A stretch of DNA of 38,130 nucleotides from a virus. Shown here piece by piece: positions 19,464 to 37,097 of the stretch (position 1 is the first letter of the stretch; each line of letters starts with the position of its first letter). The notes under the pieces are model-generated. The model ran no database searches and was not told the origin of the DNA. It was given only the letters and a program-made list of their open reading frames with translations. The DNA lies in the IMG/VR virus record IMGVR_UViG_3300030060_002320, positions 1 through 38,130 of that record. The stretch is one strand, 5' to 3'. The translations under genes were made by a program, and so were the position numbers.

Positions 19464-19478
19464 CCGGGGAGTCCCCGG
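19464..19478. repeat. Palindromic repeat copy 1 (capsid leader)
   Basis: CCGGGGAGTCCCCGG on the plus strand (ACT centre on the coding strand). The inverted repeat extends to AACCGGGGA/TCCCCGGTT, 9-bp arms around one base, the longest of the family. It lies 33 nt upstream of the capsid ATG, just after a second hairpin, and is the only copy in the morphogenesis half of the genome. Confidence 0.95.
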
Positions 19479-19483
19479 TTTTT

Positions 19484-19510
19484 CCGAGAGATATTGATGG
19501 TAAGTCTCGG
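19484..19510 (-). promoter_or_regulatory. Hairpin in capsid mRNA leader
   Basis: CCGAGA (coding-strand side 19510-19505) and TCTCGG (19489-19484) form a perfect 6-bp stem with a 15-nt loop, followed five bases later by palindromic repeat copy 1. Two stacked hairpins in front of the capsid gene suggest an mRNA processing or stabilising leader. The stem is short, so its role is a guess. Confidence 0.4.
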
Positions 19511-19524
19511 TAACCAAGAGTTTC

Positions 19525-19854
19525 TCAGTTATCCACCGCAGCGGGCCGGGAGTTATTAGATTCCTCGACATCGCCATCAATGCTTCCTGCATACCAGCCT
19601 TCTGGCAACAGGACTTTCTTAGAAGATAATTCCCATGAATTACCATTCCAATAATAGACATGACCCCGAACATCGGGACCAAGTCTTATAAGACCATCAG
19701 ACTCAGGAACGAATACGACTCTTGAACCGTCGCACCCTGTCAGACCAACGCTTACTAGCGTCAGCATTGTGACTAACGTCACGAGCCTGTTTAGGTTTCT
19801 TTGCGTCCTCAATAAAGAGGTTAATGATTGAAAGAATGAGTGTTCCAAGAGCAT
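19525..19854 (-). CDS. Small lipoprotein, outer-spanin-like
   Basis: 109 residues by the longest frame. After a basic stretch (RTQRNLNR) comes a hydrophobic segment and a lipobox VGLTGC with Cys41, so the mature protein should be anchored in the outer membrane. The mature part reads CDGSRVVFVPESDGLIRLGP and ends LPEGWYAGS plus a polar tail, a pattern I associate with small phage lipoproteins near lysis genes. Its 5' half lies inside the 52-residue ORF 19703-19861 in another frame, as Rz1 does in Rz. A later TTG start near 19812 would give a more usual signal length. Confidence 0.6.
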   Translation of the reverse strand: MLLEHSFFQSLTSLLRTQRNLNRLVTLVTMLTLVSVGLTGCDGSRVVFVPESDGLIRLGPDVRGHVYYWNGNSWELSSKKVLLPEGWYAGSIDGDVEESNNSRPAAVDN

Positions 19855-19861
19855 CCCACAT
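19703..19861 (-). CDS. Small membrane protein, possible inner spanin partner (52 aa)
   Basis: ATG at 19861-19859 overlaps the holin-like stop as TGATG, a strong translational coupling signal, with GAAGAG upstream. The product starts MWDALGTLILSIINLFIEDA (one short membrane helix, residues about 3-18) and continues as a polar, basic tail (KKPKQARDVSHN, RVRRFKSRIRS). The lipoprotein ORF starts 7 nt later in another frame, so 152 nt carry both. The pair resembles nested spanin genes, but it is short for an i-spanin. A regulatory membrane peptide is the alternative. Confidence 0.55.
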   Translation of the reverse strand: MWDALGTLILSIINLFIEDAKKPKQARDVSHNADASKRWSDRVRRFKSRIRS

Positions 19862-20076
19862 CACTCTTCTTCTTCTGATACTTCCGCAGCATTCTTCTTA
19901 AGGTTGAGTCTTGCACCTGTGTATCCAAGAGCTACAAGAGCTGCGGAAACCAGACCGATGACTTGGCCCCAAGGACCGTCCACGGGAAGGACATCAGCAG
20001 CGACAAGTCCACCCACAAGGGCAGCTCCGCAACTGAGCCAGAATTCTGTAGTTTTATATCCTGCTTTAGGTTCCAT
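19861..20076 (-). CDS. Two-TM holin candidate
   Basis: 71 residues. Helix 1 at about 12-30 (FWLSCGAALVGGLVAADVL), a short PVDGP turn, and helix 2 at about 37-55 (WGQVIGLVSAALVALGY), followed by a charged tail (NLKKNAAEVSEEEE). This matches small class II holins, which open the inner membrane to release endolysin. It lies between scaffold and capsid genes, followed by a nested pair of membrane/lipoprotein ORFs, which reads as a lysis cassette. AGGAG is 5 nt from the ATG. A second candidate is at 3309-3518. Confidence 0.65.
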   Translation of the reverse strand: MEPKAGYKTTEFWLSCGAALVGGLVAADVLPVDGPWGQVIGLVSAALVALGYTGARLNLKKNAAEVSEEEE

Positions 20077-20084
20077 GTTTACTC

Positions 20085-20867
20085 CTAGAGAATGTTTGAG
20101 TTAGAAAGTCTGTTCTGTACGTCCTGCCGGTAAGCGGGATCTTTGTGGTATCGAGGATCTTTCATTGCTTGAGTCATCTCAGCAAGAGATCGGAAAGCCC
20201 CCGAAGACCCTGTAGTTCCTGTACTTCCTTGGATAAGAGGAGCTGAAGTATTGCCTCCGCCGTCCATAGTCCAACGACTCGCCAAGCTGCGAATAGCAAA
20301 CATAGACTCCTCAGATGTACCGTTCATGACCTGCCTGTTAAACACGTCAATCTCAGACTCAGAAAGATTCTCACCGGCCCACTCGATCATCTGGTTGTAG
20401 TTTTCTTCACCGCCAACTTCGCTGTACACAGAGTTAAAGTGGCCGTCGAGGACAGCTTTCTGACCTTCGATGTACCCATCAATCATTTCTCGGGGAATGC
20501 CCCATGAAGAAATCTTCTCACGAGACTCTTCAGATACGTCACCTGTTTCTGCAAACTCTGAAGTAAAATCGCTAAAGTCTTCCATTGATAACGGCTCGAC
20601 GTTTGAGGAATCTTTAGTTTCTTCTTCTTGAGAACCTTGTCGTTCTTTAGTGAACTGAGACTGTAGTTCTTCGTAAGCCTTTGCCATTTCTTCGGGCGAG
20701 CCGAATTTCTCAGGGAGCCACTCGGGTCGTTCTTCATTACCCGACTCTTGGGCTTCCGTCTCGACTTCCTGCTCACGCTGTTCGATTTCCTCAATTTTAA
20801 TAAGGTCTTCTTGAGAGTAGGGCTGAGGCTCATCGCCGCCTACTTCTACTTTCTGGTAATCACTCAC
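20085..20867 (-). CDS. Scaffolding protein (T7 gp9-like)
   Basis: A 260-residue acidic protein, Glu/Gln/Ser-rich, between portal and capsid genes. EWLPEKFGSPEEMAKAYEEL at residues about 49-68 is the recurrent motif of podovirus scaffolds, and the C-terminus (DPRYHKDPAYRQDVQNRL) is basic and helical, the likely capsid-binding tail. Scaffold directs prohead assembly and is then lost. ATG overlaps the end of the portal gene by 8 nt. Confidence 0.9.
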   Translation of the reverse strand: MSDYQKVEVGGDEPQPYSQEDLIKIEEIEQREQEVETEAQESGNEERPEWLPEKFGSPEEMAKAYEELQSQFTKERQGSQEEETKDSSNVEPLSMEDFSDFTSEFAETGDVSEESREKISSWGIPREMIDGYIEGQKAVLDGHFNSVYSEVGGEENYNQMIEWAGENLSESEIDVFNRQVMNGTSEESMFAIRSLASRWTMDGGGNTSAPLIQGSTGTTGSSGAFRSLAEMTQAMKDPRYHKDPAYRQDVQNRLSNSNIL

Positions 20868-22389
20868 TGCTGTTCTCCATTTGACTGATCATTGCTTTCA
20901 TTGCATCCGGAGCCATCTGTTGACCCATCTGGGCCTGCTGGGCTTGCTGCTGCATCATAGCAATCTCTTCTTCAGTACGTACAAGATTTGACGTATCAAT
21001 CCCTAAAGCGGATGCTCGTCGATCCATGTACTCCCGAATATTGATGTACTGGCCTAGTACTTCCGGGCCTAATACCTGTGCAATTCCTTGGAGATATATG
21101 TCTAACCTGTTGAGGTCGTTGCCTCTTCCGAGGGCTTCAATACCAGTGACAATCGCCGGAGTGATCTTATCTCTCGGGATCTTTGGCATTCGTTTTTGTT
21201 TAGTCATTCGATCCATGATGCGGTTGACTAAGGGAAGCTGAAACTCTTGACTCAGTACGGAGTAAATACCGCCGAGCTGTCGTTCAATAGACTGCGTTAC
21301 GAGTCTGACTTCCTCTGCGGTAACTCGATCCGCATTACGAATAGTTGACTCTGTGAGGAGAAACGCATATGCCAGACGATCATTGATCTGCTGCATTGCA
21401 TTGAGAGCAACTGAAAAGTCGTTCGCCTTCTGAGTTTGCAATACACTGACATCTGCCGCACTCCCCTCACGAATAGCCCCGTTAGGACTATCGGCAAGCG
21501 TTCTTGCCCTAGTAGTTCCATTAGGGTTGACGAGGAACAGAACCTTACTGCTCGCAGCCGCACCCTCAACAATTGCTTTACTCAGCCCCTCTAGTGACCT
21601 GAGATCACCAAAGTACTGCTCAACGTATCCTCGACCGTAGTCCTCGCCGTCTACCCGAAGCATGCGAAGAGCGATGAAAGGTGATCGGTCCTTAGGAAAG
21701 ACTTGATGAGTCTCCTCAATAATCCGACCTTTGACTTCTTGGACTACTTCAACTTTGCCGTCTGGAAGAATCTCCTGCTTCGTGTAGACATCGCAAGTGT
21801 CTTCATACTCAGCCATCGTAGACTCTACATAAGCCCGGAGTTCTGGGGGTAATACGACTGGAGCAACCGTTTCTTTCATAATGATGCATTGAGCGTTACC
21901 CATTGGGTCTCGCTTGACAATGTATCGATCAAGATGAATTACTCGCATAGAGCCTTCATCGGGCATGTATAAAAGAGCGTTGCCTGTGACGACAAGATGT
22001 CGCAGAGCCTCGAAAGTGGCTACGCGGATGTTGTTGACTTCAATTTCACGGGCGACTGCACGCTCAATGTCAGCAAGAGATGTCTCAACTTCAGTCTTAA
22101 TACGGGGGTCAATTGCTTCCATTTTCTTCTTTTCAGCTTCGTCAATGACGAGTCGGAAGAAAGGAGCGTTAGGAGGCAGTAGTGATAGTAGAAGAGCTGA
22201 CGCTAAGTTATTAACCCCTCTAGCCCCTACAGATTGATAAGGAGTAGGGAAATTAGAGGAGGAGCTATTGCCATCTTCAGGCAGAATCGTAGGCACTGTA
22301 AGCCTAGAAGAGTCTCTACCCCGGTCTAGGTATGAAGACCTTTGAGCCTCACATTTACCGTAAAGAGCCGCGATAGAACCCTGATTCAT
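20860..22389 (-). CDS. Portal / head-tail connector (T7 gp8-like)
   Basis: A 509-residue protein that forms the ring at the packaging vertex. Recognisable stretches are FPTPYQSVGARGVNNLASAL with LLPPNAPFFRL (residues about 47-80), LVVTGNALLYMPDEG, IALRMLRVDGEDYGRGYVEQ and TAEEVRLVTQSIERQLGGIY, all in T7 gp8 order. The C-terminus is Gln/Met-rich. T7 gp8 is 536 aa. ATG overlaps the previous stop (TATGA). Confidence 0.96.
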   Translation of the reverse strand: MNQGSIAALYGKCEAQRSSYLDRGRDSSRLTVPTILPEDGNSSSSNFPTPYQSVGARGVNNLASALLLSLLPPNAPFFRLVIDEAEKKKMEAIDPRIKTEVETSLADIERAVAREIEVNNIRVATFEALRHLVVTGNALLYMPDEGSMRVIHLDRYIVKRDPMGNAQCIIMKETVAPVVLPPELRAYVESTMAEYEDTCDVYTKQEILPDGKVEVVQEVKGRIIEETHQVFPKDRSPFIALRMLRVDGEDYGRGYVEQYFGDLRSLEGLSKAIVEGAAASSKVLFLVNPNGTTRARTLADSPNGAIREGSAADVSVLQTQKANDFSVALNAMQQINDRLAYAFLLTESTIRNADRVTAEEVRLVTQSIERQLGGIYSVLSQEFQLPLVNRIMDRMTKQKRMPKIPRDKITPAIVTGIEALGRGNDLNRLDIYLQGIAQVLGPEVLGQYINIREYMDRRASALGIDTSNLVRTEEEIAMMQQQAQQAQMGQQMAPDAMKAMISQMENSSE

Positions 22390-22634
22390 ACATTTACTCC
22401 GGAGTTACCACTTCGGTTTAGAGGGATGGTAAATCGTTTCTTACCTGTAACGCCGCCTGCTGCTGATCGTCGTCTCTGAGATGCTGTCTTTACTTTCTTC
22501 TGAGCTTTTTCTTCAGCAGGTATAGTTGCGATCATAGGACCCGCGACTTGAGGCGGCGGTGGCTTCGGTGGGGCCGGTGCAGGTGCTGGGGGCGGCGGGG
22601 GTGCTGCTGCTTGAGGTTGACTTCCTCCACACAT
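22386..22634 (-). CDS. Proline-rich small protein upstream of portal
   Basis: 82 residues starting MCGGSQPQ, with a run of prolines and alanines to about residue 34, then GPMIATIPAEEKAQKKVKTA and a basic Arg/Ser segment. Similar MCGG-start proteins of low complexity sit upstream of the portal in marine T7-like phages; role unknown. I use ATG 22634 because CAGGAG lies just upstream, rather than the longer frame to 22658. Confidence 0.7.
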   Translation of the reverse strand: MCGGSQPQAAAPPPPPAPAPAPPKPPPPQVAGPMIATIPAEEKAQKKVKTASQRRRSAAGGVTGKKRFTIPLNRSGNSGVNV

Positions 22635-22635
22635 A

Positions 22636-26294: not shown

Positions 26295-26577
26295 TGCGTC
26301 CTCCTCGGATATCTCTTAAATCTCCAGTACTGAAGTCCACGCCTAACTGCTCGGCGTACTCTCGTATGTAGGGGTCATCAATTAGCATCCGTAGAATTTT
26401 AGTAAGCAGTTCGTTCGTCAACGCTTGAACTCTCTGCCTTGAAATAGGTATACCGTCTTCAGCTTCGATCCAATCAGCGATGTCTTGCCAAGGTACTGGG
26501 ACTCCTTCGTATTTGGGCGGAGACTTTCTCCCAGTATCGCACTGTAGCCTGTTTAGTCGCCCCCTTCGGACCCCCAT
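26275..26577 (-). CDS. Small HTH protein between lysozyme and DNA polymerase
   Basis: 100 residues from ATG 26577 (the open frame reaches 26655). The C-terminal 65 residues carry a likely helix-turn-helix: WQDIADWIEAEDGIPISRQR then VQALTNELLTKI, sigma-region-4 or MarR-like in texture. It overlaps the lysozyme gene by 104 nt and the polymerase by 20 nt. The start is uncertain because no Shine-Dalgarno stands out and the first 30 codons shadow the lysozyme frame. A DNA-binding regulator is a reasonable inference; a specific role is not. Confidence 0.55.
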   Translation of the reverse strand: MGVRRGRLNRLQCDTGRKSPPKYEGVPVPWQDIADWIEAEDGIPISRQRVQALTNELLTKILRMLIDDPYIREYAEQLGVDFSTGDLRDIRGGRNGHANI

Positions 26578-27100
26578 TATGGGATCTAGCTCGGCATTCC
26601 CACGACGCTCCGCTGCACCATCGATCCCAGTACGCACAGATGATTTTTTCTGCATAATCTTTGTTCCTTACGTCCTTGTAAGAGCCTCCCAGTTGAGGCC
26701 GGTAGTTAATAGCGTCTTTCCAGTATGCTTTAGATATCTGGTACGCACCAATAGAACGTCCCGAGTCACCAACAGCGTCATCAGCATCCGGGGAGTCCCC
26801 GGTTTCTACGAACCGTATAGCGTCCAGTAGTTCTCTAAATTCCTCAGGAGTTGACTCCGGGGATGTCGATAACTTCTGGCGAGACCCACTCGGAGAGCCT
26901 TCCATTAGTGTCTTCGTACTCAAGAGTGGTGGCGATGCCGGTGTGTCCACTGTACCTATTCTTGAGGATTCTAAGTGTGAGTTTGTTACGCATGCTTTCG
27001 TCTTGCTGATCTCTTTCGCATCCAATGCAGCAATCGGAAAGCTGAGCAATGCTGTGGCTGCCCCTAAGCTGAGCGAGGCTAGTAGTACCACCTTCTTCAT
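26474..27100 (-). CDS. Secreted lysozyme-like endolysin (i-type/destabilase-like fold)
   Basis: 208 residues from ATG 27100. A signal-like N-terminus, KKVVLLASLSLGAATALLSF, is followed by a Ser/Thr/Pro linker to about residue 85. The catalytic region is RFVETGDS (likely catalytic Glu), AVGDSGRSIGAYQISKAYW, then RARSHNGGPKGATKQATVRY with a YWEKV end, as in phage i-type lysozymes that cut peptidoglycan. GGGAG lies 5 nt before the ATG, although the first 257 nt lie inside the helicase gene in another frame. Palindromic repeat copy 2 codes the residues right after the Glu. A signal-anchor-release endolysin is possible. Confidence 0.75.
   Translation of the reverse strand: MKKVVLLASLSLGAATALLSFPIAALDAKEISKTKACVTNSHLESSRIGTVDTPASPPLLSTKTLMEGSPSGSRQKLSTSPESTPEEFRELLDAIRFVETGDSPDADDAVGDSGRSIGAYQISKAYWKDAINYRPQLGGSYKDVRNKDYAEKIICAYWDRWCSGASWECRARSHNGGPKGATKQATVRYWEKVSAQIRRSPSTLARHR
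26788..26802. repeat. Palindromic repeat copy 2 (inside lysozyme gene)
   Basis: CCGGGGAGTCCCCGG on the plus strand. In the lysozyme frame it codes T-G-D-S-P-D immediately after the presumed catalytic Glu. It lies 41 nt downstream of the helicase stop, so it is in the first stretch that is free of the overlapping helicase frame. Confidence 0.95.
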
Positions 27101-28442
27101 GTGATCTCCCATCTGGCCGACGTAGGTGTGAAACTAAAACAAGATGAACTCCGGTTTCCTCGACCAGTGATCGGAGTTTCGTCATCGTGTTGTCGATCAT
27201 TCGGCGTTCATCGCCGTCTTGCAAAGCACTCACCACGATGGATAAGTGATCTAAAATTATGAATTTACATTCCAAAGCTTTCGCCATGTATCTGACTCTG
27301 TTCAACAGATTAGTTGGGTCAATTGATCCCCAGTGGTCGTACAGAACTAAGTTGCCCGCACCCACAGTCTTATCGAAAGCTGCTCTTTTCTGTTGATCAG
27401 TTACTTCATCACGCTCCCAGTAGTGCGGAGGTTTATTCATCTCAAGGCCCATGATGTGTTCAGAAGTCTTACGAACAGATTCTTCCAGAGCAATGTATCC
27501 CACCTTCTCACCTAAGCCGAGTAGGTAGTGAGCGAGTTCACGAGTAACACTTGATTTACCGATGCCAGTACCCGCAGTCAATGTGACTAACTCACCACCT
27601 CGCATACCGAACAGCTTGTCATTGAGTCCTGACCACGGATAAGGAATAGACCGCCTCGTGTCTTTCTCGATGATCATGTCCCACACTTCTTCTCCGGGGA
27701 TGACACCATCAGGACGGAAACCCTTAGCTCCGTAGACTGAATCTATAAGCTCTTTGACTTGGCCTCCAACTAGGCACTCGTTAGCGTCCTTGCCGGGCAA
27801 GCTGGTGACAATCTTAGCCTTACCGGGACTTAACATCTGGGCCGCCTCGACAGCCGCTGAACGTCCCTGAGTATCTTGATCAAAGCAAAGGATGACTGAC
27901 TCGAAAGACTCCAGCCAATCTAAATGTTTAGCCACAATCTTCGATGCAGACTTCGCACCGTTAGGTATAGAAACAACAGGCCACTTAAGATTGAAACACT
28001 GACTCAAGCTGAGAGCATCAAGCTCTCCCTCGACCACAGTCACCATCTTTCCCTCGTCTCTCCATAAATGAGAACCGTAGAGTCCGACCTTAGAGGTATC
28101 GCCTAGCCACCTAAAAGTCTTGTCGTGGAACCGTAGCTTCTGAGCCACGATGGTCCCAGTGTCGTCGCAGTAGTTAGCTACCTGAACATCTCTGCCGTCG
28201 TAAGTACCTACTCCATACTTCCACTTCTTGCATGTCTCAACGTCGATGCCTCTCTTTGCGAGATGACTTATTTCATACTCAATTAATCCAGTCACTTTGC
28301 GAGCCTCCTTAATGCTGCTAGTGCCATCACCGTGTTCGTAATATTCACACCCGAAACAATAGGCGTGTCCGTCTGTATACCTAGCCAGATTGTCCCTTGA
28401 GGAACAGTTTGGACAAGGCTCGTGCCTTAGGAATTCCGTCAA
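26844..28442 (-). CDS. DNA primase-helicase (T7 gp4-like)
   Basis: 532 residues from TTG 28442. The zinc-binding domain has CPNC at 10-13 and CFGC at 29-32, which read template primase sites. The Toprim-like primase core contains VVEGELDALSLSQ and ESVILCFDQDTQG. The RecA-type helicase shows Walker A GTGIGKSS, FIILDHLSIVV (Walker B) and RGSHSIAQLSDCCIGCERDQ. Length is near T7 gp4A (566 aa), but the long acidic tail is absent. TTG is chosen because GGAGG is 9 nt upstream; an ATG at 28538 has no ribosome site. It overlaps the RusA-type gene by 62 nt. Confidence 0.93.
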   Translation of the reverse strand: MTEFLRHEPCPNCSSRDNLARYTDGHAYCFGCEYYEHGDGTSSIKEARKVTGLIEYEISHLAKRGIDVETCKKWKYGVGTYDGRDVQVANYCDDTGTIVAQKLRFHDKTFRWLGDTSKVGLYGSHLWRDEGKMVTVVEGELDALSLSQCFNLKWPVVSIPNGAKSASKIVAKHLDWLESFESVILCFDQDTQGRSAAVEAAQMLSPGKAKIVTSLPGKDANECLVGGQVKELIDSVYGAKGFRPDGVIPGEEVWDMIIEKDTRRSIPYPWSGLNDKLFGMRGGELVTLTAGTGIGKSSVTRELAHYLLGLGEKVGYIALEESVRKTSEHIMGLEMNKPPHYWERDEVTDQQKRAAFDKTVGAGNLVLYDHWGSIDPTNLLNRVRYMAKALECKFIILDHLSIVVSALQDGDERRMIDNTMTKLRSLVEETGVHLVLVSHLRRPDGRSHEEGGTTSLAQLRGSHSIAQLSDCCIGCERDQQDESMRNKLTLRILKNRYSGHTGIATTLEYEDTNGRLSEWVSPEVIDIPGVNS

Positions 28443-28905
28443 CTTGCATAACCTCCACCTCAATTCCTGTTCGTTCACCAAACTCTTTTGACATAGAGGC
28501 CCAGACGATTTGATCGTCGTCCCACCAGACAAACCCATTTAGCACGTCGAGCGTCTTGAAGTAATTATCTACATCACCCCGAGGAGAGATGCGTTTAGTT
28601 TTCTTGGGAGGTGCAACCACGAACTTAGAGGACACCACCAAGGGACCACTTAAAGGAAACTCAATTGGAAAAGCTGATGTAGTAAACAAAACATCTGCTT
28701 GTTTTCTGAAGGCCGTATAGTTCTTCCCATAGTAGACCCGCCCGGACCTCGCAAACCTTGGTCTGGAGGCCGGGACAGGATCTAGGGGAAGGAAAAGGGA
28801 CCAACAGTTTCCCTCAAGAGACGACTCAATACTCCGATCAGAAATCAAATCCGGAGTCGTGAGTTTCTTCCGGGGACTCCCCGGTTTGTTGCTTCGTTTT
28901 GCCAT
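28381..28905 (-). CDS. RusA-type Holliday junction resolvase
   Basis: 174 residues from ATG 28905; the homologous core starts near residue 40. LPLDPVPASRPRFARSGRVY, then SPRGDVDNYFKTLDVLNG and WWDDDQIVWAS reproduce RusA: the Asp trio (D-V-D-N and D-D) binds metal and cuts four-way junctions. It fills the place of T7 endonuclease I (gene 3), resolving branched concatemers before packaging. The start is uncertain. The chosen ATG (AAGGG upstream) overlaps the SSB gene by 68 nt, and the N-terminus then reads through a palindromic repeat as PGSPR. A later TTG is an alternative. Confidence 0.85.
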   Translation of the reverse strand: MAKRSNKPGSPRKKLTTPDLISDRSIESSLEGNCWSLFLPLDPVPASRPRFARSGRVYYGKNYTAFRKQADVLFTTSAFPIEFPLSGPLVVSSKFVVAPPKKTKRISPRGDVDNYFKTLDVLNGFVWWDDDQIVWASMSKEFGERTGIEVEVMQVDGIPKARALSKLFLKGQSG

Positions 28906-29449
28906 CCGTGACGAACCCTTCTTCTTCAGAGAACGCCCACGAATCAAAGCCGTCACCCTTGCTGTACTCAACCAGCTTGATGACCTGAACAGCCTTGAGG
29001 CGAAGGGTTACTCCAGTACCTGCCATCGCGGTGGAGTAAGGAACAATCTCACAGCCCACCTTAATTTGAGAACCTCCGCCAATCTGCTCAGCCATTGGTA
29101 CACCCTTGGCATCAAACAGTGCAGGACGTTGTTCCCAACGATCAGGACCGTTCTGACCAACAGCTTTCAACTTAAATTTAATCTCAACTTCACCCGTTGG
29201 ATGGCCGTTGTCATCTTCAACATCTTTGACAGGCATCGCTGACATCTTCTTACTCTTGGCACGGCCAGAAGAAACAAACTCACTGACTACTGTCTCCATT
29301 TTCGAGATCAGAGTTTCTGCATGTTCCTTCGTGAGCCTAAGAGCTACGTGGTAGATGCCGTCCTTATCAAACTTAGTGTCTGGTGAGTTAAGGTGAGGCC
29401 ATTGAGCTGTACCAACCTCAGTAGTAAATCGTTCGTTACGCTTTTTCAT
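28838..29449 (-). CDS. Single-stranded DNA-binding protein (T7 gp2.5-like)
   Basis: 203 residues with an OB-fold-like core (GIYHVALRLTKEHAETLISK, GEVEIKFKLKAVG, QIKVGCEIVPYS, VTLRLKAVQVIKLVEY) and an acidic C-terminal tail ending DSGFDF. The acidic tail with terminal Phe is the mark of gp2.5, which uses it to bind polymerase and helicase. Gene order RNA polymerase, SSB, endonuclease equals T7. The ATG follows the RNA polymerase stop, whose TAG is part of the AGGAGA ribosome site. Palindromic repeat copy 3 lies in the tail as T-G-E-S-P-E. Confidence 0.9.
   Translation of the reverse strand: MKKRNERFTTEVGTAQWPHLNSPDTKFDKDGIYHVALRLTKEHAETLISKMETVVSEFVSSGRAKSKKMSAMPVKDVEDDNGHPTGEVEIKFKLKAVGQNGPDRWEQRPALFDAKGVPMAEQIGGGSQIKVGCEIVPYSTAMAGTGVTLRLKAVQVIKLVEYSKGDGFDSWAFSEEEGFVTDGKTKQQTGESPEETHDSGFDF
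28870..28884. repeat. Palindromic repeat copy 3 (SSB 3' end / RusA 5' end)
   Basis: CCGGGGACTCCCCGG on the plus strand. It is read as T-G-E-S-P-E in the acidic tail of SSB and as P-G-S-P-R if the RusA-type gene starts at 28905. So it marks the SSB/RusA gene boundary. Confidence 0.95.
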
Positions 29450-29458
29450 GTAAGTCTC

Positions 29459-31873
29459 CTAATTAAAATAGTATTTGGATTTCAGGACATCTGAAACCTC
29501 AAGAGTACCCATGTCTGGGACACTAGGTAATGATACACCAATAGGTAGTAACATTTCAAGTTGACGGGCGAGTATCTCTAACTGATTCAACTGAAAGAGA
29601 TCGACCGTAGCTTGTCGGACACTGTGGTGCATGGTGTCCACGTCTGATGCAAGAACATTTATCGAGTCGTGAATAGTCATGACTGATTTAGTTCCTGATG
29701 CACTTGCTAGATTTAATGTATGGCCTAACAGGCCGCCAATGCCATCAAGTGAATGAATAAAGTTAGGACAGATCGCGTTGACTGTCTTTCGTCTGTTTGT
29801 CTCGCCATTCGGAATCCGAAGACGGTGCTGTCTCAATGTACCCCCGACCAAAGTCTTAATTGTGTACTTGTTAGTGTTCTCATAGTGCATTTTCACAGGA
29901 AAACCTAGGGGTGTACTCCACCGAGGGATAATGTCGTTCTCTACGAACAGTGCCGCACACTCACGAAGCCAATCCATGCCCACCCTCGCTGACTGAACGA
30001 CCTCACCTATGGCTTCCCATATTTTTTCTGCAAGGTAGTTGCAGGGGCTGTATGTCTCGTCACCAAACGGATTTTCTCGGCCCTTCTTCAGCTCCTCATA
30101 AAACCACTCAGTTGTATACGTCCTGCATGAAAAGAAAACAGAGCCGTAGCAGAGAGTCATCGTCTGACGCTTTGTAGTCTTCCTTGTGATGCCGAAGTCG
30201 AGCCACTTCTTGCCGTAAGGGTGACTGTCTTCATACAAAAGTCTCCTAACAATATCGGCTACTTGTTTATAAACATCCTGTGGGTGAACACTGGGTACGA
30301 CATTCGTCGCTAAGCCTGCAACTGGATCTCTCAACAACATCGAGTAAATCTGCAAGCCTTGATTAGTCGCATCCATACTTACTGGCATCGAAGTGCGGAA
30401 AGATGAGCCTTGTGAATGCAGTCGGTGAACCTCCATGCATGCTCTTACAAACGCCCACGGTTCATCCGCGTCTGTCCAAGTCATATCAGAAAGCGGGGAC
30501 TCCCCGGTTCTCTTTAGTAACTCAATGTTGTCCTCGGCCCACTTAATTCTTTCTGAGTAAGGCTCTTTGTCTAAACCCCAGCGAGATGCAGCGTGGCTGT
30601 ATAACCAAGTAACGGCTGAGTCTCCGACAGCCGCCGTCTCATCGAAGTTCAATAAACTCTTTGCCCAGTCCGGCCCTTGAGGCTGCAAGAAATAAGGGAC
30701 AGGGTAAATACGCATTCTGAAATCAGCGGACACTGGATAATACAACGTGTCATTCGCAAACTTACTCGACAGGTTCAAGACCTTCATCACCTGTATACGC
30801 TTAGACTTCTGGCTCTCGTTCTCAAAGTGTGTCCTAGCTGCTGATTTACGCCAAGCCCTACGAGCCTCTGGATCTGTCTTGATATTCTGAGGCTTCGGCG
30901 GCATCGGAAGATCATCTAGCGACGGCAGCCCTCCAATGGGAAGACCCTTGTCCCAGCAGTGCCTCAACAGCTCCACCATCTGACCGTCGATCCTGTAGCC
31001 CGTGTTCTGCACTGTATTGACAGCGGAATAAACCTCAGGCATCTCTGTACCAGCTAAGTCCTCTAGATATGGGATGTCAAACGTCTTAACCAGCGGTCTC
31101 CTCTTGAATGAGAGAGATTTATAGCCTCCAATGTACGGGTTGTTCCAATCAATTGGTTTCTCAATCATCGGCAGCCACACTGGAGACAACGCCTCGTTGT
31201 ACTCATGCGACTTCTTGATCCAAGACATCAGCTCATCAGTCGGACGTATCGAGGTATACGCTTTACCCCTCGCATCTTTCCGGGTCTTAATATCTATGAC
31301 CCCCGTAGACTGCCGCATCAACTCAATACACGTAAGGCCAACAGATGCTGCGACCTTGCGATCCCACGAGGGCACTACCAGATCATGAAACTTGATTGTC
31401 TTATTAATAAACTTAGACTTAGTCTTCTGAGATTTGAAACGATCAAGGACTCTGTTGATCTGCTGCCAGAGAGCAGGCTCTTCCTCTTTGATCTTACGAA
31501 ACTTAATCTCATCCTCTAACAGGCGACCAATGAACACCGAGGCACTGACGATCTTCCTCTCGATACTGATGCAGTCGAGGATACAACGAGCAGTCAACCC
31601 AGCGATAACCTTTGGAGGCAACTGCTTTAAATACTGGTAAGCTTTGTGTCGTCTACCGGGAACAACCGCTGCTGTCTGAATCCAAGCCTCGACCGCCTCA
31701 GTCATTTTATTAATTGATTCGCCTAGTAGGTATTGACCTACCGATGTCGTTGACTCAAGAGATGTCTCTTTAGCCCTCTTCAGTTTATGGTGGTATCTCT
31801 CAACACCTAAGTCCACCATCTCTTCTTCAAGCTTCGATTGGTTATTGTTCTTTTCAGCCACGGTACTTGTCAC
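29459..31873 (-). CDS. Single-subunit RNA polymerase (T7 gp1-like)
   Basis: 804 residues, shorter than T7 RNAP (883). Motif A is PVSMDATNQGLQ with Asp501. The O-helix, ITRKTTKRQTMTLCYGS, holds Arg564, Lys568 and Tyr576. Motif C is MTIHDSINV with Asp736. All catalytic residues are present, so it should transcribe middle and late genes from its own promoters. Start GTG 31873 is the earliest in frame after an upstream stop; GTG 31861 is an alternative. Palindromic repeat copy 4 codes T-G-E-S-P-L at residues 456-461, in a loop before motif A. The gene is directly downstream of the integrase. Confidence 0.97.
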   Translation of the reverse strand: MTSTVAEKNNNQSKLEEEMVDLGVERYHHKLKRAKETSLESTTSVGQYLLGESINKMTEAVEAWIQTAAVVPGRRHKAYQYLKQLPPKVIAGLTARCILDCISIERKIVSASVFIGRLLEDEIKFRKIKEEEPALWQQINRVLDRFKSQKTKSKFINKTIKFHDLVVPSWDRKVAASVGLTCIELMRQSTGVIDIKTRKDARGKAYTSIRPTDELMSWIKKSHEYNEALSPVWLPMIEKPIDWNNPYIGGYKSLSFKRRPLVKTFDIPYLEDLAGTEMPEVYSAVNTVQNTGYRIDGQMVELLRHCWDKGLPIGGLPSLDDLPMPPKPQNIKTDPEARRAWRKSAARTHFENESQKSKRIQVMKVLNLSSKFANDTLYYPVSADFRMRIYPVPYFLQPQGPDWAKSLLNFDETAAVGDSAVTWLYSHAASRWGLDKEPYSERIKWAEDNIELLKRTGESPLSDMTWTDADEPWAFVRACMEVHRLHSQGSSFRTSMPVSMDATNQGLQIYSMLLRDPVAGLATNVVPSVHPQDVYKQVADIVRRLLYEDSHPYGKKWLDFGITRKTTKRQTMTLCYGSVFFSCRTYTTEWFYEELKKGRENPFGDETYSPCNYLAEKIWEAIGEVVQSARVGMDWLRECAALFVENDIIPRWSTPLGFPVKMHYENTNKYTIKTLVGGTLRQHRLRIPNGETNRRKTVNAICPNFIHSLDGIGGLLGHTLNLASASGTKSVMTIHDSINVLASDVDTMHHSVRQATVDLFQLNQLEILARQLEMLLPIGVSLPSVPDMGTLEVSDVLKSKYYFN
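30493..30507. repeat. Palindromic repeat copy 4 (inside RNA polymerase gene)
   Basis: GCGGGGACTCCCCGG on the plus strand: the only copy with a mismatch in the 15-bp core (G for the first C). It is read as T-G-E-S-P-L at residues 456-461 of the RNA polymerase, in a region of variable length between T7-like polymerases. Confidence 0.9.
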
Positions 31874-31937: not shown

Positions 31938-32933
31938 CTAACTCTCCTCTAATAGCAGAACCGCATCGGTCATATTGTTGGGGGCTAAGTGAGCATACCT
32001 CATGGTTGTCTGGATCGACCGATGCCCCGCAAGAGTCTTTACAGTAACCAATGGTACACCTTTCTGGATCAACCGAGAGATAAAAGTGTGCCTACAGGTA
32101 TGAAACAATGCAGACTCAACGCTACTCAGCAATCCCTTGCGTCTGAGCTTCGCTAATGTGTGATCGATCACGCTACTCGTAAACGGAAAGGGCCATTCAA
32201 GATTGTCGGAAAGCCTTCGGTACAGTATGTCCGCCACACGTTTAGTCATCGGAATGCTTCTCGGCAAAGATGTCTTGATCATGTCAGGATCAGAAAGGTT
32301 AATTTGATTCGCGGTAAAATTCACATCAAACCACTCCACACTCAAGGCTTCTCCTCGACGCATCCCCGTGTCAATCAGGACTGCAAAGAAGTCTTGTAGA
32401 TCAGGCTCGGAAGCTAGGTCTTCAAGTATTTTCAACTCGTCTTCCTTGGAGTAAAACTTCATACGTCCGTTCGGCTCCCTCTGCTTGGCTACGGTCGGCT
32501 TGATCTTGATAAGACCATGACGGTGAGCGTAGTTAAACACCTTGCCAGCTATAGCAATCTTCCGGTTAATCGTTGCAGGCCCATTGCCCTCACTCCGTAA
32601 ACCTAAGACGTAAGCCTCAAGGTCGTAAGATGTAATGTCGGACACATCTCGGTCATCCCCGAAATGATCAATGACTTTAAGCATTCTATTGAATGTATGA
32701 TCCGCAGATTTCTGACGAGACCACTCTAATTTCCAGATGTGATTCGCCATACCTCCGAAGGTAGTAGGGATTCCCTCTTTTTTCTTGACTGGCTCACGGC
32801 CCTCAATGAGATCTGCTTTGGCAGTCAGCTCGAACATCTGTGCTTTGTATAGATCTTTGAAATCCCTACGAATCCGTTTGCCCTCGTGCATAACAGACAC
32901 TTGCCAAGAGTTTTTTCGTTTAGTAATACTCAT
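31938..32933 (-). CDS. int: Tyrosine-type phage integrase
   Basis: 331 residues. An N-terminal arm-binding segment (SITKRKNSWQVSVMHEGKR) and a core-binding SAM-like domain (about 55-150) precede the catalytic domain. The catalytic residues read as Arg192 in DTGMRRGEAL, Lys220, His278-x-x-Arg281 in FHTCRHTF, His304 in AGHRSIQTT and the nucleophile Tyr313 in MRYAHL. All are present, so it should integrate and, with a partner, excise the genome. ATG overlaps the upstream stop (AAATGA) behind AAGGAG. Confidence 0.96.
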   Translation of the reverse strand: MSITKRKNSWQVSVMHEGKRIRRDFKDLYKAQMFELTAKADLIEGREPVKKKEGIPTTFGGMANHIWKLEWSRQKSADHTFNRMLKVIDHFGDDRDVSDITSYDLEAYVLGLRSEGNGPATINRKIAIAGKVFNYAHRHGLIKIKPTVAKQREPNGRMKFYSKEDELKILEDLASEPDLQDFFAVLIDTGMRRGEALSVEWFDVNFTANQINLSDPDMIKTSLPRSIPMTKRVADILYRRLSDNLEWPFPFTSSVIDHTLAKLRRKGLLSSVESALFHTCRHTFISRLIQKGVPLVTVKTLAGHRSIQTTMRYAHLAPNNMTDAVLLLEES

Positions 32934-33248: not shown

Positions 33249-34124
33249 TCAGAAATCAGCGGCGGAGTTAGTGACTAGATCCGGGGACTCCCCGGATAAC
33301 TCAGGACCAAAGCGTTCATTAAGAATAGTGTCTAACTTATGGAACCGCAGTGACTGAGTCAATACGTTACGTCCACGGTCATGACTCGTGAATGCGTTGT
33401 TCAATGACCACACACTGCGATCCTTAAACACTGCGTGTTCGGGAGTCTCCCAGTGTTCGAGTACTTTCATAGTACCGGCAGCTCCGATGATGTCTTTCTT
33501 TGCTGCCTGCATGATGATGTACCGAGCGTCGTCGTCAGTGCATTCGATACGCTGCATGCGTTCAATGCGATCAGCTCGATCATCTAACTGGGTGAACAGT
33601 TGCCCGATACTGTGGTCTACTAAATCATAGATGTGTTGGAACAGGCCGTCACGGTGACGATCTATGCCGGACGTATGCTTACGCCTGAATCCGGAAGACG
33701 CATAAAGAAACTGCCCGTTTGCACACTCTACTATACGCTCACCGCCACCAAGAGTAGCCGCTAACGACATATCGTAAGAGTTCATTGCACCTGCTTCCCA
33801 CCACAGTCCTTTAACAAAGGGAAGCCGAGCGTGAGCGATGCCATAGAGGCTGAGGAATCGACCCCACTCAGGAAGATCCCTGATTAAATCAGCGTTCTTC
33901 TTACGAGAGTTAGCTCGGTAATGCGTAGGCTCTGAAATCTCAAAGCCGTGGCGTTCAAACGCCTGCTCTACCATCTGAGTGAACGCAGCGTGAGGCAGTG
34001 GTCTCCATGTGTCAGGCCCGAGAGCAGGCACTGGAATCTTTTCAATTGTCTTAATATCGACACGCTCACCCCAGCCTTTAGTCGAGTGCGGGGTCGGAAC
34101 GCGAGGTTTTTGTAATGAAACCAT
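33249..34124 (-). CDS. DUF932-type phage protein
   Basis: 291 residues. SLYGIAHARLPFVKGLWWEA and a C-terminal SVWSLNNAFTSHDRGRNVLT fit the DUF932 (phage/plasmid-related) family, whose members end in a W-x-x-N-A-x-T motif and are common in early regions of phages and on plasmids; their biochemical role is not settled. It is expressed with the early genes. ATG 34124 has GGAGA upstream. Palindromic repeat copy 5 codes S-G-E-S-P-D nine residues from the end, and the transcription terminator follows directly. Confidence 0.7.
   Translation of the reverse strand: MVSLQKPRVPTPHSTKGWGERVDIKTIEKIPVPALGPDTWRPLPHAAFTQMVEQAFERHGFEISEPTHYRANSRKKNADLIRDLPEWGRFLSLYGIAHARLPFVKGLWWEAGAMNSYDMSLAATLGGGERIVECANGQFLYASSGFRRKHTSGIDRHRDGLFQHIYDLVDHSIGQLFTQLDDRADRIERMQRIECTDDDARYIIMQAAKKDIIGAAGTMKVLEHWETPEHAVFKDRSVWSLNNAFTSHDRGRNVLTQSLRFHKLDTILNERFGPELSGESPDLVTNSAADF
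33281..33295. repeat. Palindromic repeat copy 5 (3' end of DUF932-type gene)
   Basis: CCGGGGACTCCCCGG on the plus strand, with AT/AT flanks making ATCCGGGGACTCCCCGGAT. It is read as S-G-E-S-P-D near the C-terminus of the DUF932-type protein, about 40 bp upstream (in the transcription sense) of the intrinsic terminator. Confidence 0.95.
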
Positions 34125-34202
34125 TATGAGTCTCCATAAATTAGGGTTAGAAAAGTATGCGTGATTGCCCTACGAGGTATGCGCATCCCACCTCTGGAGA
34201 AA

Positions 34203-34517
34203 TTACTCAGAGATTAGGAAGTCAGAGTGAAACATGATGATGACATGTACAACGTCACCCTTGATTTTACGCTGGACAACTTTAAGGTTGTTGCCAAACC
34301 TCTTGGATACGGATTTCGCACCGCTCTTAAAACCGGCGACCCTGCTACGCCCAGAGAGTTCGGTGACGCTAGAGTGACCCGGCCCCATCTTGACGAGACC
34401 CATTGCGGCCTCCTTACCCTTAGCGTATGGCCCTTGTGTATGTGACGGATGGCCTAGAATATGCTGGGGAATCCCCTTGTGAATTACTGTTTTAGGTGTT
34501 GTATATTTGTCAGTCAT
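34203..34517 (-). CDS. Hypothetical basic early protein
   Basis: 104 residues from ATG 34517, rich in Gly, Lys, Ser and His (HKGIPQHILGHPSHTQGPYA, GFKSGAKSVSKRFGNN), with a hydrophobic strand near the end (GDVVHVIIMFHSDFLI). I do not recognise the family. The ATG overlaps the upstream stop and has GGAG 6 nt before it. Early location and basic charge would fit a host-takeover or DNA-binding protein, but nothing proves it. Confidence 0.6.
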   Translation of the reverse strand: MTDKYTTPKTVIHKGIPQHILGHPSHTQGPYAKGKEAAMGLVKMGPGHSSVTELSGRSRVAGFKSGAKSVSKRFGNNLKVVQRKIKGDVVHVIIMFHSDFLISE

Positions 34518-34731
34518 TTGAGTCTCCAAAGAGATCGTCTAAAGTTTTTAGATCTTTGATCTCAGGTAATTTAATGATGAGCTTGAGGTACGTCAACTCG
34601 TCTTCACTGAGCATCAGCTCAGCATCCTCACGCTCCAGTGTGCGTTTAGCAAATTTCTTTGCACGATTGAGATTGTTAGCTTCGATATGTGCATCGACGA
34701 TGTCTAACAAATTAGTCCATTGTATTCGCAA
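34510..34731 (-). CDS. Small helical early protein
   Basis: 73 residues from TTG 34731: QWTNLLDIVDAHIEANNLNR, then KKFAKRTLEREDAELMLSED and a tail LPEIKDLKTLDDLFGDSND. It is entirely helical and acidic at the end. The open frame extends to 34977, but that part shadows the GP88-like gene. TTG with AAAGGA about 11 nt upstream and a 20-nt overlap with the preceding stop fit the genome style. The start is tentative and the function unknown. Confidence 0.5.
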   Translation of the reverse strand: MRIQWTNLLDIVDAHIEANNLNRAKKFAKRTLEREDAELMLSEDELTYLKLIIKLPEIKDLKTLDDLFGDSND

Positions 34732-35488
34732 TATGCATCGATTCCTTTCTGTTTGTATCCGGGGAGTCCCCGGAAATGGTGAGTGGTGTAAACAATTCTT
34801 GTGAGTCAGCAAAGAAGGGGCCAGCATTCTTGACAGAACCCTTGGTACGCAAGCCTGCAATAACACCGGGAGCCTCAAGCCATCGACAGTCGTCCTCGTC
34901 CGCATCGACAACAGGGAACCCACGCCACTCGGTAGGCAGTGGATTGTCCCAGCAATCCTTGAAGACGACGGCGACATTGCGAGTAGTCGTTAGCCACTCG
35001 ACGCACTGCTCCCAGTTGTACCCTGTATATGACAAGGTCAGATGGTAGTTCTTGGGAAGATCCCAGCGACGATGCATCTTGGTGTAGTCGTAGAACTGGA
35101 TGTCTGAAAACTCCCTGAATATCTCAGGATGCTTCTTCTCCCAGACAATGTCTGAGTATGTATTGAGACGGACAACAGGCTTCTTGCCTAGACGATCACA
35201 GTACTTGCGATGGTTGTTAAGCTCACGGAATAACAGAGCCATGAACGTCTCGTTGTCCTCGAAGAATAACTTAGTCTTACGGATCTTTGCCTGCTTCGCT
35301 GGATTGAAACGATTGTGTCCAGACTTGACACCGATGCAGGCTTTGGTGCAGTCAGGGGTACGCATTGGACACGTCTCGTATCCGCTGAGATTTGCGGGAG
35401 CTAAGGACAGGCCGCGTAAAACGTATGGCTCGCCCCGTGATGATTGCTTAGATAACTTATTGTTAGTACCAAGTAATTTCTCAGGCAT
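34712..35488 (-). CDS. Cysteine-motif phage protein (GP88/DUF7227-like)
   Basis: 258 residues from ATG 35488. The first third has RGLSLAPANLSGYETCPMRT then PDCTKACIGVKSGHNRF with three closely spaced Cys, and the middle has VVRLNTYSDIVWEK and IQFYDYTKMHRRW, followed by NYHLTLSYTGYN and FPVVDADEDDCRW. This matches a widespread phage family (gene 88-like) of unknown biochemical role, whose Cys cluster may bind metal or an Fe-S centre. Repeat copy 7 lies in the leader and copy 6 near the 3' end (S-G-D-S-P-D). Confidence 0.7.
   Translation of the reverse strand: MPEKLLGTNNKLSKQSSRGEPYVLRGLSLAPANLSGYETCPMRTPDCTKACIGVKSGHNRFNPAKQAKIRKTKLFFEDNETFMALLFRELNNHRKYCDRLGKKPVVRLNTYSDIVWEKKHPEIFREFSDIQFYDYTKMHRRWDLPKNYHLTLSYTGYNWEQCVEWLTTTRNVAVVFKDCWDNPLPTEWRGFPVVDADEDDCRWLEAPGVIAGLRTKGSVKNAGPFFADSQELFTPLTISGDSPDTNRKESMHIANTMD
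34759..34773. repeat. Palindromic repeat copy 6 (3' end of GP88-like gene)
   Basis: CCGGGGAGTCCCCGG on the plus strand, read as S-G-D-S-P-D about 20 residues before the end of the GP88-like protein. It also lies 27 nt upstream of the TTG start proposed for the next gene, so here too it precedes a start codon. Confidence 0.95.
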
Positions 35489-35512
35489 GATGTTCTCCAA
35501 TGTAGGTAGGAA

Positions 35513-35527
35513 CCGGGGAGTCCCCGG
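35513..35527. repeat. Palindromic repeat copy 7 (leader of GP88-like gene)
   Basis: CCGGGGAGTCCCCGG on the plus strand, in the non-coding gap 35489-35612, 24 nt upstream of the ATG and just upstream of the TTGGAGAA ribosome site. Confidence 0.95.
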
Positions 35528-35612
35528 ATTGAAGGGAAGAGGTAGGTCTCTTGGCCCATGTATATTAGAGCAGATATGCTCACGGTTTACAAGTTTTTGG
35601 GGCTGTTATAAA

Positions 35613-35747
35613 CTACTTTTTCCGTTTCTTAAAAGACCATTTAGGATTGCGTTTAGATTTAGAACGGTTTTTACCGCCATGCTTATTTAAAGACACTGCT
35701 TTAAACTCATCACGAGTCATCTTTGACATCTTATGTATTGAAGCCAC
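35613..35747 (-). CDS. Small Lys/Arg-rich protein (44 aa)
   Basis: GTG at 35747 with AGGAG 6 nt upstream; the ribosome site begins in the stop codon of the preceding gene. The product reads ASIHKMSKMTRDEFKAVSLN, then NKHGGKNRSKSKRNPKW and a KKRKK end. It is strongly basic and probably binds nucleic acid or acidic host proteins. An internal ATG would give 38 residues. Coupling and the ribosome site make this a likely real gene despite its size. Confidence 0.6.
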   Translation of the reverse strand: MASIHKMSKMTRDEFKAVSLNKHGGKNRSKSKRNPKWSFKKRKK

Positions 35748-35756
35748 TGGATACTC

Positions 35757-36122
35757 CTATTTAGGGGCTGAGAAGTGAATGATTTCCTTGACCGCCCGCA
35801 CGATCTTGTTGATGAACGTGAGACTCTCCTCTGCATACTCCATCGTGAGCTGTAGAGTCTCCAGTTTGCGAGATAACTCATTGATACGATCCTTGAGAGG
35901 GTCTGTAGCCTTCTCGATCTCAAGTTCAATGGTCTTGTTTATAGTTGTTTCGAGTTCAAAACATTTGTTGTCAACGTAACCTAGGTCTTGTATGCCACAA
36001 GAAACAACATCCTCCACTTCTTCTTTGATCTTGTCCTCCATGTCGCTTTCAAAGGTCTCAAGAGCTTCACGGATAATAGGTTCAATTTCACATTGATCGA
36101 TGTCTACTGTAATTAAAGGCAT
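35757..36122 (-). CDS. Acidic coiled-coil early protein
   Basis: 121 residues, Glu/Asp/Lys-rich, predicted as nearly continuous helix with heptad-like leucine and isoleucine spacing (EIEKATDPLKDRINELSRKL, ETLQLTMEYAEESLTFINKI). There is no family I can name. Repeat copy 8 lies 17 nt upstream of the ATG, next to TGGAGAA. Acidic helical early proteins often act as inhibitors of host factors or DNA mimics, which is speculation here. Confidence 0.65.
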   Translation of the reverse strand: MPLITVDIDQCEIEPIIREALETFESDMEDKIKEEVEDVVSCGIQDLGYVDNKCFELETTINKTIELEIEKATDPLKDRINELSRKLETLQLTMEYAEESLTFINKIVRAVKEIIHFSAPK

Positions 36123-36139
36123 TTGAGTTCTCCATGAAT

Positions 36140-36154
36140 CCGGGGAGTCCCCGG
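36140..36154. repeat. Palindromic repeat copy 8 (leader of coiled-coil gene)
   Basis: CCGGGGAGTCCCCGG on the plus strand with AT flanks (ATCCGGGGAGTCCCCGGAT). It is 17 nt upstream of the ATG at 36122 and one base after the stop of the upstream gene. Confidence 0.95.
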
Positions 36155-36155
36155 A

Positions 36156-36410
36156 TCAGTTAAGGTTTTCTGGATAAAATTTAAGTGTTGATTGGCCCTC
36201 AATGTGATCACGGCGATCACGTAAGAATTGAACGGGCTTCTCTGGAAGTACGTCGTCAAGCTTTCGGACATCGGCAGCGAGCCGAGCAATAGCCACGTCA
36301 AGCTTATGGTCACCTGTGGATTCGACTACCTCCGCAGTGACTACGGTATCGATTGCACCTGCAATGATGCGACAGGCTAGGTCTGGATCTAACGAACTAT
36401 CATGGGACAT
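36156..36410 (-). CDS. Small early protein of unknown function
   Basis: 84 residues with an Ala/Val/Asp-rich helical first half (LACRIIAGAIDTVVTAEVVE, KLDVAIARLAADVRKLDDVL) and a charged end. I do not recognise it. GGAGAA lies before the ATG at 36410. It is one of the few early genes without a palindromic repeat in its leader; only 15 bases separate it from the upstream gene. Confidence 0.6.
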   Translation of the reverse strand: MSHDSSLDPDLACRIIAGAIDTVVTAEVVESTGDHKLDVAIARLAADVRKLDDVLPEKPVQFLRDRRDHIEGQSTLKFYPENLN

Positions 36411-36425
36411 TTGGGTTCTCCTTGT

Positions 36426-36818
36426 TTAGTGGATTGATGTGCAGAACGATCCGGGTTCTGGTGAATCGAATTCGGTTACTAAAAACCAGCAGTCTGGAAA
36501 CCAATCGGCTCCACGCTCAGGGTAGTAATCTTCCCCGCACTCCTCGTAATATGCACCGATCAACTGCTTGTATTTTCGGAAACTTTTCCTACACGTCTTC
36601 TCCCAGTACCATAGTTGTTTATGCAAGAAATCAATATGATCGGTGAGTGAAACGCGAACGTCGCACTTCGGGGAAAGCTGCACCTTATTCGCTTCCCGGT
36701 CGAGTGCGTAAAACTTTGTGATGAGACTGTCCGCATTCTCGTATTCGCCAATTCCATGTGCGAGAAGATCCGCAAGAGTGTCGAGTTCGACTCCAATGCT
36801 GGTTGATTCGTTGTTCAT
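36426..36818 (-). CDS. Early protein of unknown function (130 aa)
   Basis: 130 residues, acidic, with many aromatic residues (LHKQLWYWEKTCRKSFRKYK, IGAYYEECGEDYYPERGADW, FPDCWFLVTEF) and five Cys. No family recognised. Repeat copy 9 lies 24 nt upstream of the ATG, with AGGAGA between them. As a soluble early protein it is a candidate host-interaction factor by position only. Confidence 0.65.
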   Translation of the reverse strand: MNNESTSIGVELDTLADLLAHGIGEYENADSLITKFYALDREANKVQLSPKCDVRVSLTDHIDFLHKQLWYWEKTCRKSFRKYKQLIGAYYEECGEDYYPERGADWFPDCWFLVTEFDSPEPGSFCTSIH

Positions 36819-36842
36819 GTGTGTTCTCCTAATTTAGGTAAT

Positions 36843-36857
36843 CCGGGGACTCCCCGG
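36843..36857. repeat. Palindromic repeat copy 9 (leader of 130-aa gene)
   Basis: CCGGGGACTCCCCGG on the plus strand with AT flanks, directly after the stop of the 68-residue gene and 24 nt before the next ATG. Confidence 0.95.
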
Positions 36858-36858
36858 A

Positions 36859-37065
36859 TCAGTTCTTAACTTTGATGATGTGGCCGTTTTTAATAACAAC
36901 ACGTACATACCATTTGTGAGCCTCTGGAAAGTGTGGGCCTTCACAAGTATCCGTCCCGTCTCTAAGGTCAGGCCCGAAGGGGCCGGGTTGAAACGCTGGT
37001 ACTGGGCCGAGTGCTACGGCCTCCTTAAGAGCTTTCTTGGTGCGGTAGTTGTAAGTCGCGTACAT
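36859..37065 (-). CDS. First early gene after host promoter (68 aa)
   Basis: 68 residues from ATG 37065: MYATYNYRTKKALKEAVALG, a Pro/Gly/Phe stretch (PAFQPGPFGPDLRDGTDTC) and a C-terminal WYVRVVIKNGHIIKVKN. It is the first gene downstream of the sigma70-type promoter and the leader hairpin, and so should be expressed immediately on infection, like T7 gene 0.3. No homology is recognised. GGAG lies 7 nt before the ATG; repeat copy 10 is 17 nt upstream. Confidence 0.65.
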   Translation of the reverse strand: MYATYNYRTKKALKEAVALGPVPAFQPGPFGPDLRDGTDTCEGPHFPEAHKWYVRVVIKNGHIIKVKN

Positions 37066-37082
37066 TGGTATCTCCAAATAAT

Positions 37083-37097
37083 CCGGGGACTCCCCGG
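37083..37097. repeat. Palindromic repeat copy 10 (leader of first early gene)
   Basis: CCGGGGACTCCCCGG on the plus strand with AT flanks. It lies about 45 nt downstream of the predicted -10 box and 17 nt before the first early ATG, so a protein bound here would act as a roadblock and the RNA would form a second leader hairpin. Confidence 0.95.

Follow-up and report, generated by a model that had tools for sequence, protein, structure and literature searches.

What reads a 15-bp palindrome that occurs a dozen times in one phage genome? The question is raised by the virus record IMGVR_UViG_3300030060_002320 (IMG/VR), of which we analysed positions 1 to 38,130 ("the window", 38,130 nucleotides); the contig itself measures 39.1 kb, with 988 bp lying to the right of the window end. 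The palindrome, CCGGGGASTCCCCGG, is present in 12 copies on the contig, 10 of them within the window and two past its right end. We think that these palindromes probably form a dispersed array of operators or stoperators for a protein encoded by the phage, the product of the first early gene being the best candidate, and that the specificity of this protein changes in the manner of an immunity system; this view is drawn from sequence comparisons with relatives of the phage (below, G000 is the source phage, and the other labels beginning with G or L are records of its relatives).

The array is far denser than in the controls. A scan of the window with up to three mismatches gives 12 matches, where shuffled sequences average 0.44 and never exceed three, and with a second-order Markov control the largest palindrome family has three to four members, versus the 12 observed. 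The ten positions listed in the original prediction are all correct (nine exact copies, and one at 30493 with a single mismatch), as are the centres on the plus strand (ACT in five, AGT in five) and the extension of four copies to AT...AT (33281, 36140, 36843 and 37083); its count of ten holds for the window and slightly understates the contig. Of the two further copies, the one at 38434 is exact, and the one at 38277 reads GCGGGGACTCCCCGC, with the outer base changed on both sides and the palindrome left intact. The proposed restriction to the early and replication half plus the capsid leader also stands, the structural half, left of 19464, being free of copies at up to two mismatches. The terminase gene holds two partial matches with three mismatches, CCGGGGAGTCC(T), at 1296-1310 and 1464-1478 (168 bp apart), which may be relics of half-sites or chance. 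Exact matches to CCGGGGASTCCCCGG occur in bacterial genome contigs as well, with one palindrome per stretch among the matches listed; it is the clustering that stands out, rather than any phage-specificity of the motif itself.

Where do the copies sit? Five are leader sites, all exact: 19464-19478, between the open reading frame (ORF) 19525-19854 and the capsid gene (18300-19430); 35513-35527, in the leader of a GP88-like gene (34712-35500); and 36140-36154, 36843-36857 and 37083-37097, each extended to AT...AT, in the leaders of the ORFs 35757-36122, 36426-36818 and 36859-37077, respectively. The last of these lies about 40 bp downstream of the start expected from a predicted sigma70-like early promoter, TTGACT-16-TAAAAT (37142-37169, minus strand). 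The other five window copies fall within reading frames, where they are translated as G-(D/E)-S-P, so that a true intergenic position applies only to some of the sites. Three of these five are at the extreme 3' end of a gene: 28870-28884 (exact), at the 3' end of the single-stranded DNA-binding protein gene (GESP) and in the 5' end of the ORF 28381-28971; 33281-33295 (exact), in a DUF932-like ORF (33249-34124); and 34759-34773 (exact), in the GP88-like gene, shortly before the next start. Because they are placed at a gene end, and because 28870 and 34759 additionally adjoin, or fall inside, the start of the next gene, these copies resemble the leader sites. Only two are deep inside genes, namely 26788-26802 (exact; GDSP, within the ORF 26474-27112) and 30493-30507 (one mismatch; GESP, around codon 458 of the RNA polymerase gene).

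Is this arrangement peculiar to one phage? Closer relatives of the source phage exist in IMG/VR, and in a search for repeated palindromes each phage shows one dominant family (controls mostly give one to four copies). Of the relatives whose early region has been sequenced, most have a 13-16 bp palindrome of their own, in up to 15 copies, and more than 15 distinct sequences are found among them. The word of the source phage recurs in G007 (seven copies, versus 12 in G000); other phages have TCGGAGASTCTCCGA (G003, nine copies), GTTGGGAWTCCCAAC (G009, nine), TTCTAGGATCCTAGAA (G015, 15), TTCTAGTCACTAGAA (G020, 11), CCGGGGAATCCCCSG (G001, about four to five), TCTGTAGTGCTACAGA (eight) or CTGGGACGTCCCAG (ten), palindromes of the GTCTAGNNNCTAGAC type are present in G016 and others, and TCTTGTCATGACAAGA, TCGGGTGATCACCCGA, TCTAAGACTTAGA, TATAGACTCTATA and more are dominant elsewhere. 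Records in which no array rises above the controls include G017, G021 and L315 (for L315/G028, in the part read), and there is none that is clear over background in the cultured phages LUZ100, HTVC019P, S2B and CRP-125. As side observations, a degenerate palindrome at 34464-34478 of the window, CTGGGGAATCCCCTT, has an A/T centre as in G001 and is possibly a decayed site; and the word GANTC (CcrM/HinfI) is central in many of the palindromes (window sites, G001, G003, G007, G009, L312, L319, L333 and L363), this centre not being universal (G015, G020, L332 and L361 are without it).

The words differ, and the positions are kept. In the RNA polymerase alignment, the site near codon 458 reads CCGGGGAGTCCCCGC in G000 (GESP), TCGGAGAGTCTCCGA in G003 (GESP) and GTTGGGAATCCCAAC in G009 (GNPN), and the relatives without a site at this position have GSDP (G007) or GTDP (G001). 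Likewise, the site at the 3' end of the DUF932-like gene (33281) has orthologous sites at 5065 in G003 and 30663 in G009, and the site in the GP88-like leader (35513) has one at 2866 in G003. These observations bear on the idea that the palindromes are selfish or mobile elements spreading through the genomes. Copies inside reading frames do lie in a tolerated frame (GDSP/GESP), as such elements might. A spreading element, however, is contradicted by fixed positions with exchanged sequences, by the occupation of the early half and by the presence of a single type per phage, and we give this idea hardly any credence.

Another possibility, close to the second model of the original prediction, is that the sites act in mRNA: hairpins beside the ribosome-binding sites would govern its stability, its processing or its translation. 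The location of the sites speaks for it: of 276 sites, 143 (52%) have their end no more than 40 nt ahead of a start codon that is preceded by a Shine-Dalgarno-like sequence, the usual distance being 10-25 nt, and random positions do so in 8.8% of cases. A 6-bp stem with a 3-nt loop could also form. The sequences themselves speak against it. A mismatched pair is present in 111 of 315 sites, and in mRNA sense there is no preference for wobble pairs (28 A.C versus 19 G.U). The central base of the 12 copies in G000 is always C or G (six of each in mRNA sense), never A or U, and is A or U without exception in G009; L363 and G016 have asymmetric variants, mismatched in mid-stem, in either orientation. 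These patterns of mismatch, central base and orientation agree with recognition of double-stranded DNA by a symmetric protein. One site in the middle of the RNA polymerase gene, and a single word common to all copies and changing in concert, are further points that a hairpin explains poorly. We thus consider hairpins improbable as the primary function; what survives of this model is that the sites often stand just before starts; a road-block ahead of genes may account for this placement, and so may the room that compact genomes leave there.

Which protein, then, would read the DNA? Two pairs of sister phages bear on this. In G015 and G020 the RNA polymerases are 98% identical, and the site cores are GATC versus TCA in conserved flanks. 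In L332 and L333 the RNA polymerases are 99% identical and the aligned flanks 74-97% identical, with 'ttcaactga' before and 'aggagag' after the site common to both, and the word is GTCTAAGNCTTAGAC in one versus TTATAGANTCTATAA in the other. Essentially all of the 11-15 sites differ within each pair, and the core replication genes are 95-100% identical in both. The first early gene behaves in another way: its products are 35% identical between G015 and G020, and BLASTP gives no significant match between those of L332 and L333. The array, its limits, the different words of the relatives, the concerted change at orthologous sites and, in two sister pairs, the co-switching of the sites with the first early gene are all direct observations. 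(A single TCTAGACTCTAGA site is found at position 3219 of L333, amid TATAGASTCTATA sites; it is perhaps a relic of an operator switch.)

The sister pairs also speak to the view that the phage RNA polymerase or a host factor recognises the sites, as promoters or otherwise. Sites upstream of genes are what one would look for in a phage with its own RNA polymerase, but the sister phages keep this enzyme (and presumably share their hosts) and yet differ in their sites and in their first early gene, so that polymerase or host factors are unlikely readers; in addition, the sites are palindromic, unlike promoters of the T7 type. We reject this view on the evidence of the sister pairs, and its probability is in our opinion negligible.

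The product of the first early gene is most likely the protein that binds the sites, to judge from these comparisons. In several phages the sites flank this gene, being located upstream of or just after its sigma70-like promoter and close behind its stop codon. Moreover, over 11 phages the distance between candidate proteins correlates with that between half-sites once RNA polymerase distance is controlled for (partial Mantel r 0.47, permutation p 0.007). The operator model of the original prediction is in this way supported by the relatives' own palindromes, by the joint change of orthologous sites and by sister pairs that differ in both sites and first early gene. The first early protein matches no Pfam or PHROG family. 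An AlphaFold model of the one from L363 (predicted local distance difference test, pLDDT, 87) is all-helical, with a disordered N-terminus and one long helix ahead of the putative DNA-binding region, and there is no Pfam match to a CTPase. Foldseek found nothing significant for this model in the PDB. The best chains in VIA include the DNA-binding domains of ParB, Noc, KorB, SopB and VirB (Z 2-5; the best Z, 5.1 for ParB-type domains, is tied with clamp-loader fragments), and a viral structure library returned, with weak E-values, one Spo0J/ParB-like and two DUF3102 proteins. We take the resemblance of the modelled fold to ParB/KorB as a lead only, and not as membership of that family.

In the source phage, the first early gene lies on the minus strand (37589-38071 within the window, with an ATG near contig position 38257) and encodes about 222 amino acids with a helix-turn-helix (HTH)-like stretch; it is the gene that the original prediction had named as its HTH candidate. 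The site at 38277 is directly upstream of its start, and the site at 38434 is upstream of its predicted sigma70-like promoter (TTGATG-17-TATGAT). It is a candidate by its position, by the HTH-like stretch and by analogy with the sister pairs. A run of 10 N inside the gene (contig 38131-38140) leaves the full protein unreadable.

In what kind of phage does this array occur? The major genes are all on the minus strand, and PHROG matches identify terminase, T7-type tail, capsid, scaffold, portal, exonuclease, DNA polymerase, primase/helicase and single-stranded DNA-binding proteins, together with a T7-like single-subunit RNA polymerase (29459-31873, minus strand; PHROG 414, E 1e-212), whose gene houses one of the palindromes, and a tyrosine integrase (31938-32933, minus strand; PHROG 1, E 1.5e-59; PF00589). 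The RNA polymerase, the T7-like gene order and the structural genes make this a T7-like phage (autographivirus). The GP88-like (PF17338) and DUF932-like genes, which adjoin sites, are conserved in both clades. Phage records searched by megablast gave no match to the DNA of the source phage, and the RNA polymerases of cultured phages reach 34-35% identity at best, the nearest (34%) coming from phages of roseobacters and pelagibacters. Prophage scans of 385 genomes (class of G043) and 369 genomes (class of G044) returned distant polymerases only. At about 590-635 of L275, a sequence resembling the T-arm of a tRNA, CCGGGTTCGAGTCCCGG, adjoins a G003 site and is perhaps the remnant of an attachment site; ARAGORN finds no tRNA there.

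Several points weigh against our proposal. The ParB-like fold match of the L363 model falls within the range of common helical arrangements. The first early protein of the source phage has no detectable sequence relation to the better-supported TCTAG-clade family (hhalign probability 0.2), its own model is poor (pLDDT 66), and its fold matches are dominated by C-terminal helices, with no ParB-type chain listed; for the first early proteins of L361 and L321, too, no homology to the TCTAG-clade family was found. Even with G007, which shares the operator, the similarity of this protein is weak (a score as high comes from 4 of 500 shuffles, a DDTT.R motif is common to both, and BLASTP is not significant). 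A search for more of its relatives found none, and a PDB sequence search gave one weak match (7bqq Gogy, E 0.005), which we do not interpret. Other small early genes differ between G015 and G020 as well. Finally, integrase is missing from most of the relatives that bear sites (PF00589 was found in six of 29 records: G000, G003, G009, G027, G028 and G041), and G028/L315, whose early region is different, carries an integrase and shows no array over the stretch that was read.

These last points lead to the question of lysogeny. The original prediction had named equally frequent sites in related lytic phages without an integrase as a result that would count against it, and such sites were indeed found: nearly complete integrase-less records of 39-42 kb (G007, G015, G016, G020, G033, G035, G036 and G038) hold 7-15 sites. 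Such arrays remove a strict link to lysogeny, not the operator reading; lysogeny is therefore not the whole story. T7-like cyanophages are known to integrate without establishing stable lysogeny (PMC8776855). One could thus suppose that array and protein serve the lytic cycle only, in the shut-off of early transcription by the host polymerase or in DNA organisation, with no part in lysogeny or immunity. This would suit the integrase-less phages, in which resolvase is lacking too (none in 18 records), as well as the fact that ParA was looked for and not found and that the first early gene encodes the protein. The fast change of specificity among otherwise near-identical phages, which is typical of immunity systems, speaks against it, and so does the integrase of the source phage and of four site-bearing relatives (G003, G009, G027 and G041). 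We regard a purely lytic role as rather unlikely, though clearly worth keeping in mind.

In the mechanism that we favour, a sequence-specific protein of the phage, probably a dimer with one half-site per subunit, would bind the double-stranded palindromes, both in the vicinity of the early promoter and immediately before many early, replication and capsid genes. Once bound, it would block the initiation of transcription or, as a road-block, its elongation. Its specificity would change quickly, with all sites following, as expected for a repressor of the immunity type. The identity of the binder, its dimeric binding, repression by road-block and a role in immunity or lysogeny are what we infer from the comparisons above.

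How far can this be generalised? We are evenly divided on whether an immunity-type control system of this sort is widespread in T7-like phages, in the form of an uncharacterised and fast-diversifying early DNA-binding protein with 10-15 palindromes and more than 15 specificities, which is kept without integrase and whose arrays switch together with the protein. T7-like phages serve as the textbook example of strictly lytic development. If the idea is true, one fast-changing protein with dispersed operators would be a concrete answer to how temperate T7-like phages silence the phage polymerase, and immunity groups would be predictable from sequence alone. The sister pairs offer natural material on how 10-15 scattered operators change along with their repressor.

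How does the array compare with known systems? The stoperators of cluster A mycobacteriophages such as L5, which are temperate, are about 13 bp long and occur in many copies in promoters and short intergenic spaces; the motif has phage-specific versions, and motif and repressor distances correlate (PMC9283540, PMC6550527). Our sites are similarly numerous, short, conserved and dispersed in early and intergenic DNA (12 copies, up to 15 in relatives), and their motif covaries with a candidate phage protein (partial Mantel test, two sister pairs). However, the L5 stoperators are asymmetric and oriented with transcription, and the protein that reads them is a monomer that has two DNA-binding domains (PMC9283540, PMC6550527), whereas the array sites are perfect palindromes of 13-16 bp (in G000 with six C to six G at the centre, in mRNA sense). 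Their hosts are T7-like phages that encode an RNA polymerase and in many cases lack an integrase, and the candidate protein matches no Pfam or PHROG family. The SAS/ESAS elements of cluster K mycobacteriophages (11-19 copies, some with inverted repeats) are also located in the non-structural half only and near start codons, as our copies are, but SAS are asymmetric, mostly in one orientation and 3-7 bp from the start, and their variation with a phage protein is not reported (PMC3203893). Among temperate T7-like phages, control by MarR has been proposed for LUZ100 and pelagiphages (PMC10134795); these share with the source phage the T7-like character, a proposed repressor encoded by the phage and an integrase adjoining the RNA polymerase gene. 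They differ in that our search for MarR genes (PF12802) gave none in any of 16 records, and in that LUZ100, HTVC019P, S2B and CRP-125 show no clear array above background.

The plasmid RK2 offers another parallel. As described in PMC11790492, KorB is a global repressor whose near-palindromic operator OB occurs 12 times on the replicon, near or far upstream of promoters. The site of one relative, TCTAGCSGCTAGA, resembles the OB core TTTAGCGGCTAAA of an oligonucleotide in that paper, and the modelled L363 protein aligns weakly to the DNA-binding domains of KorB, ParB and Noc; the N-terminal CTPase clamp domain of KorB, on the other hand, is not seen in the candidate. Our searches of open-access papers turned up no description of such arrays in T7-like phages. 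What is new is the palindromic form of the sites, their T7-like setting and the uncharacterised protein, whereas the logic is already known from the stoperators of L5 and the operators of KorB.

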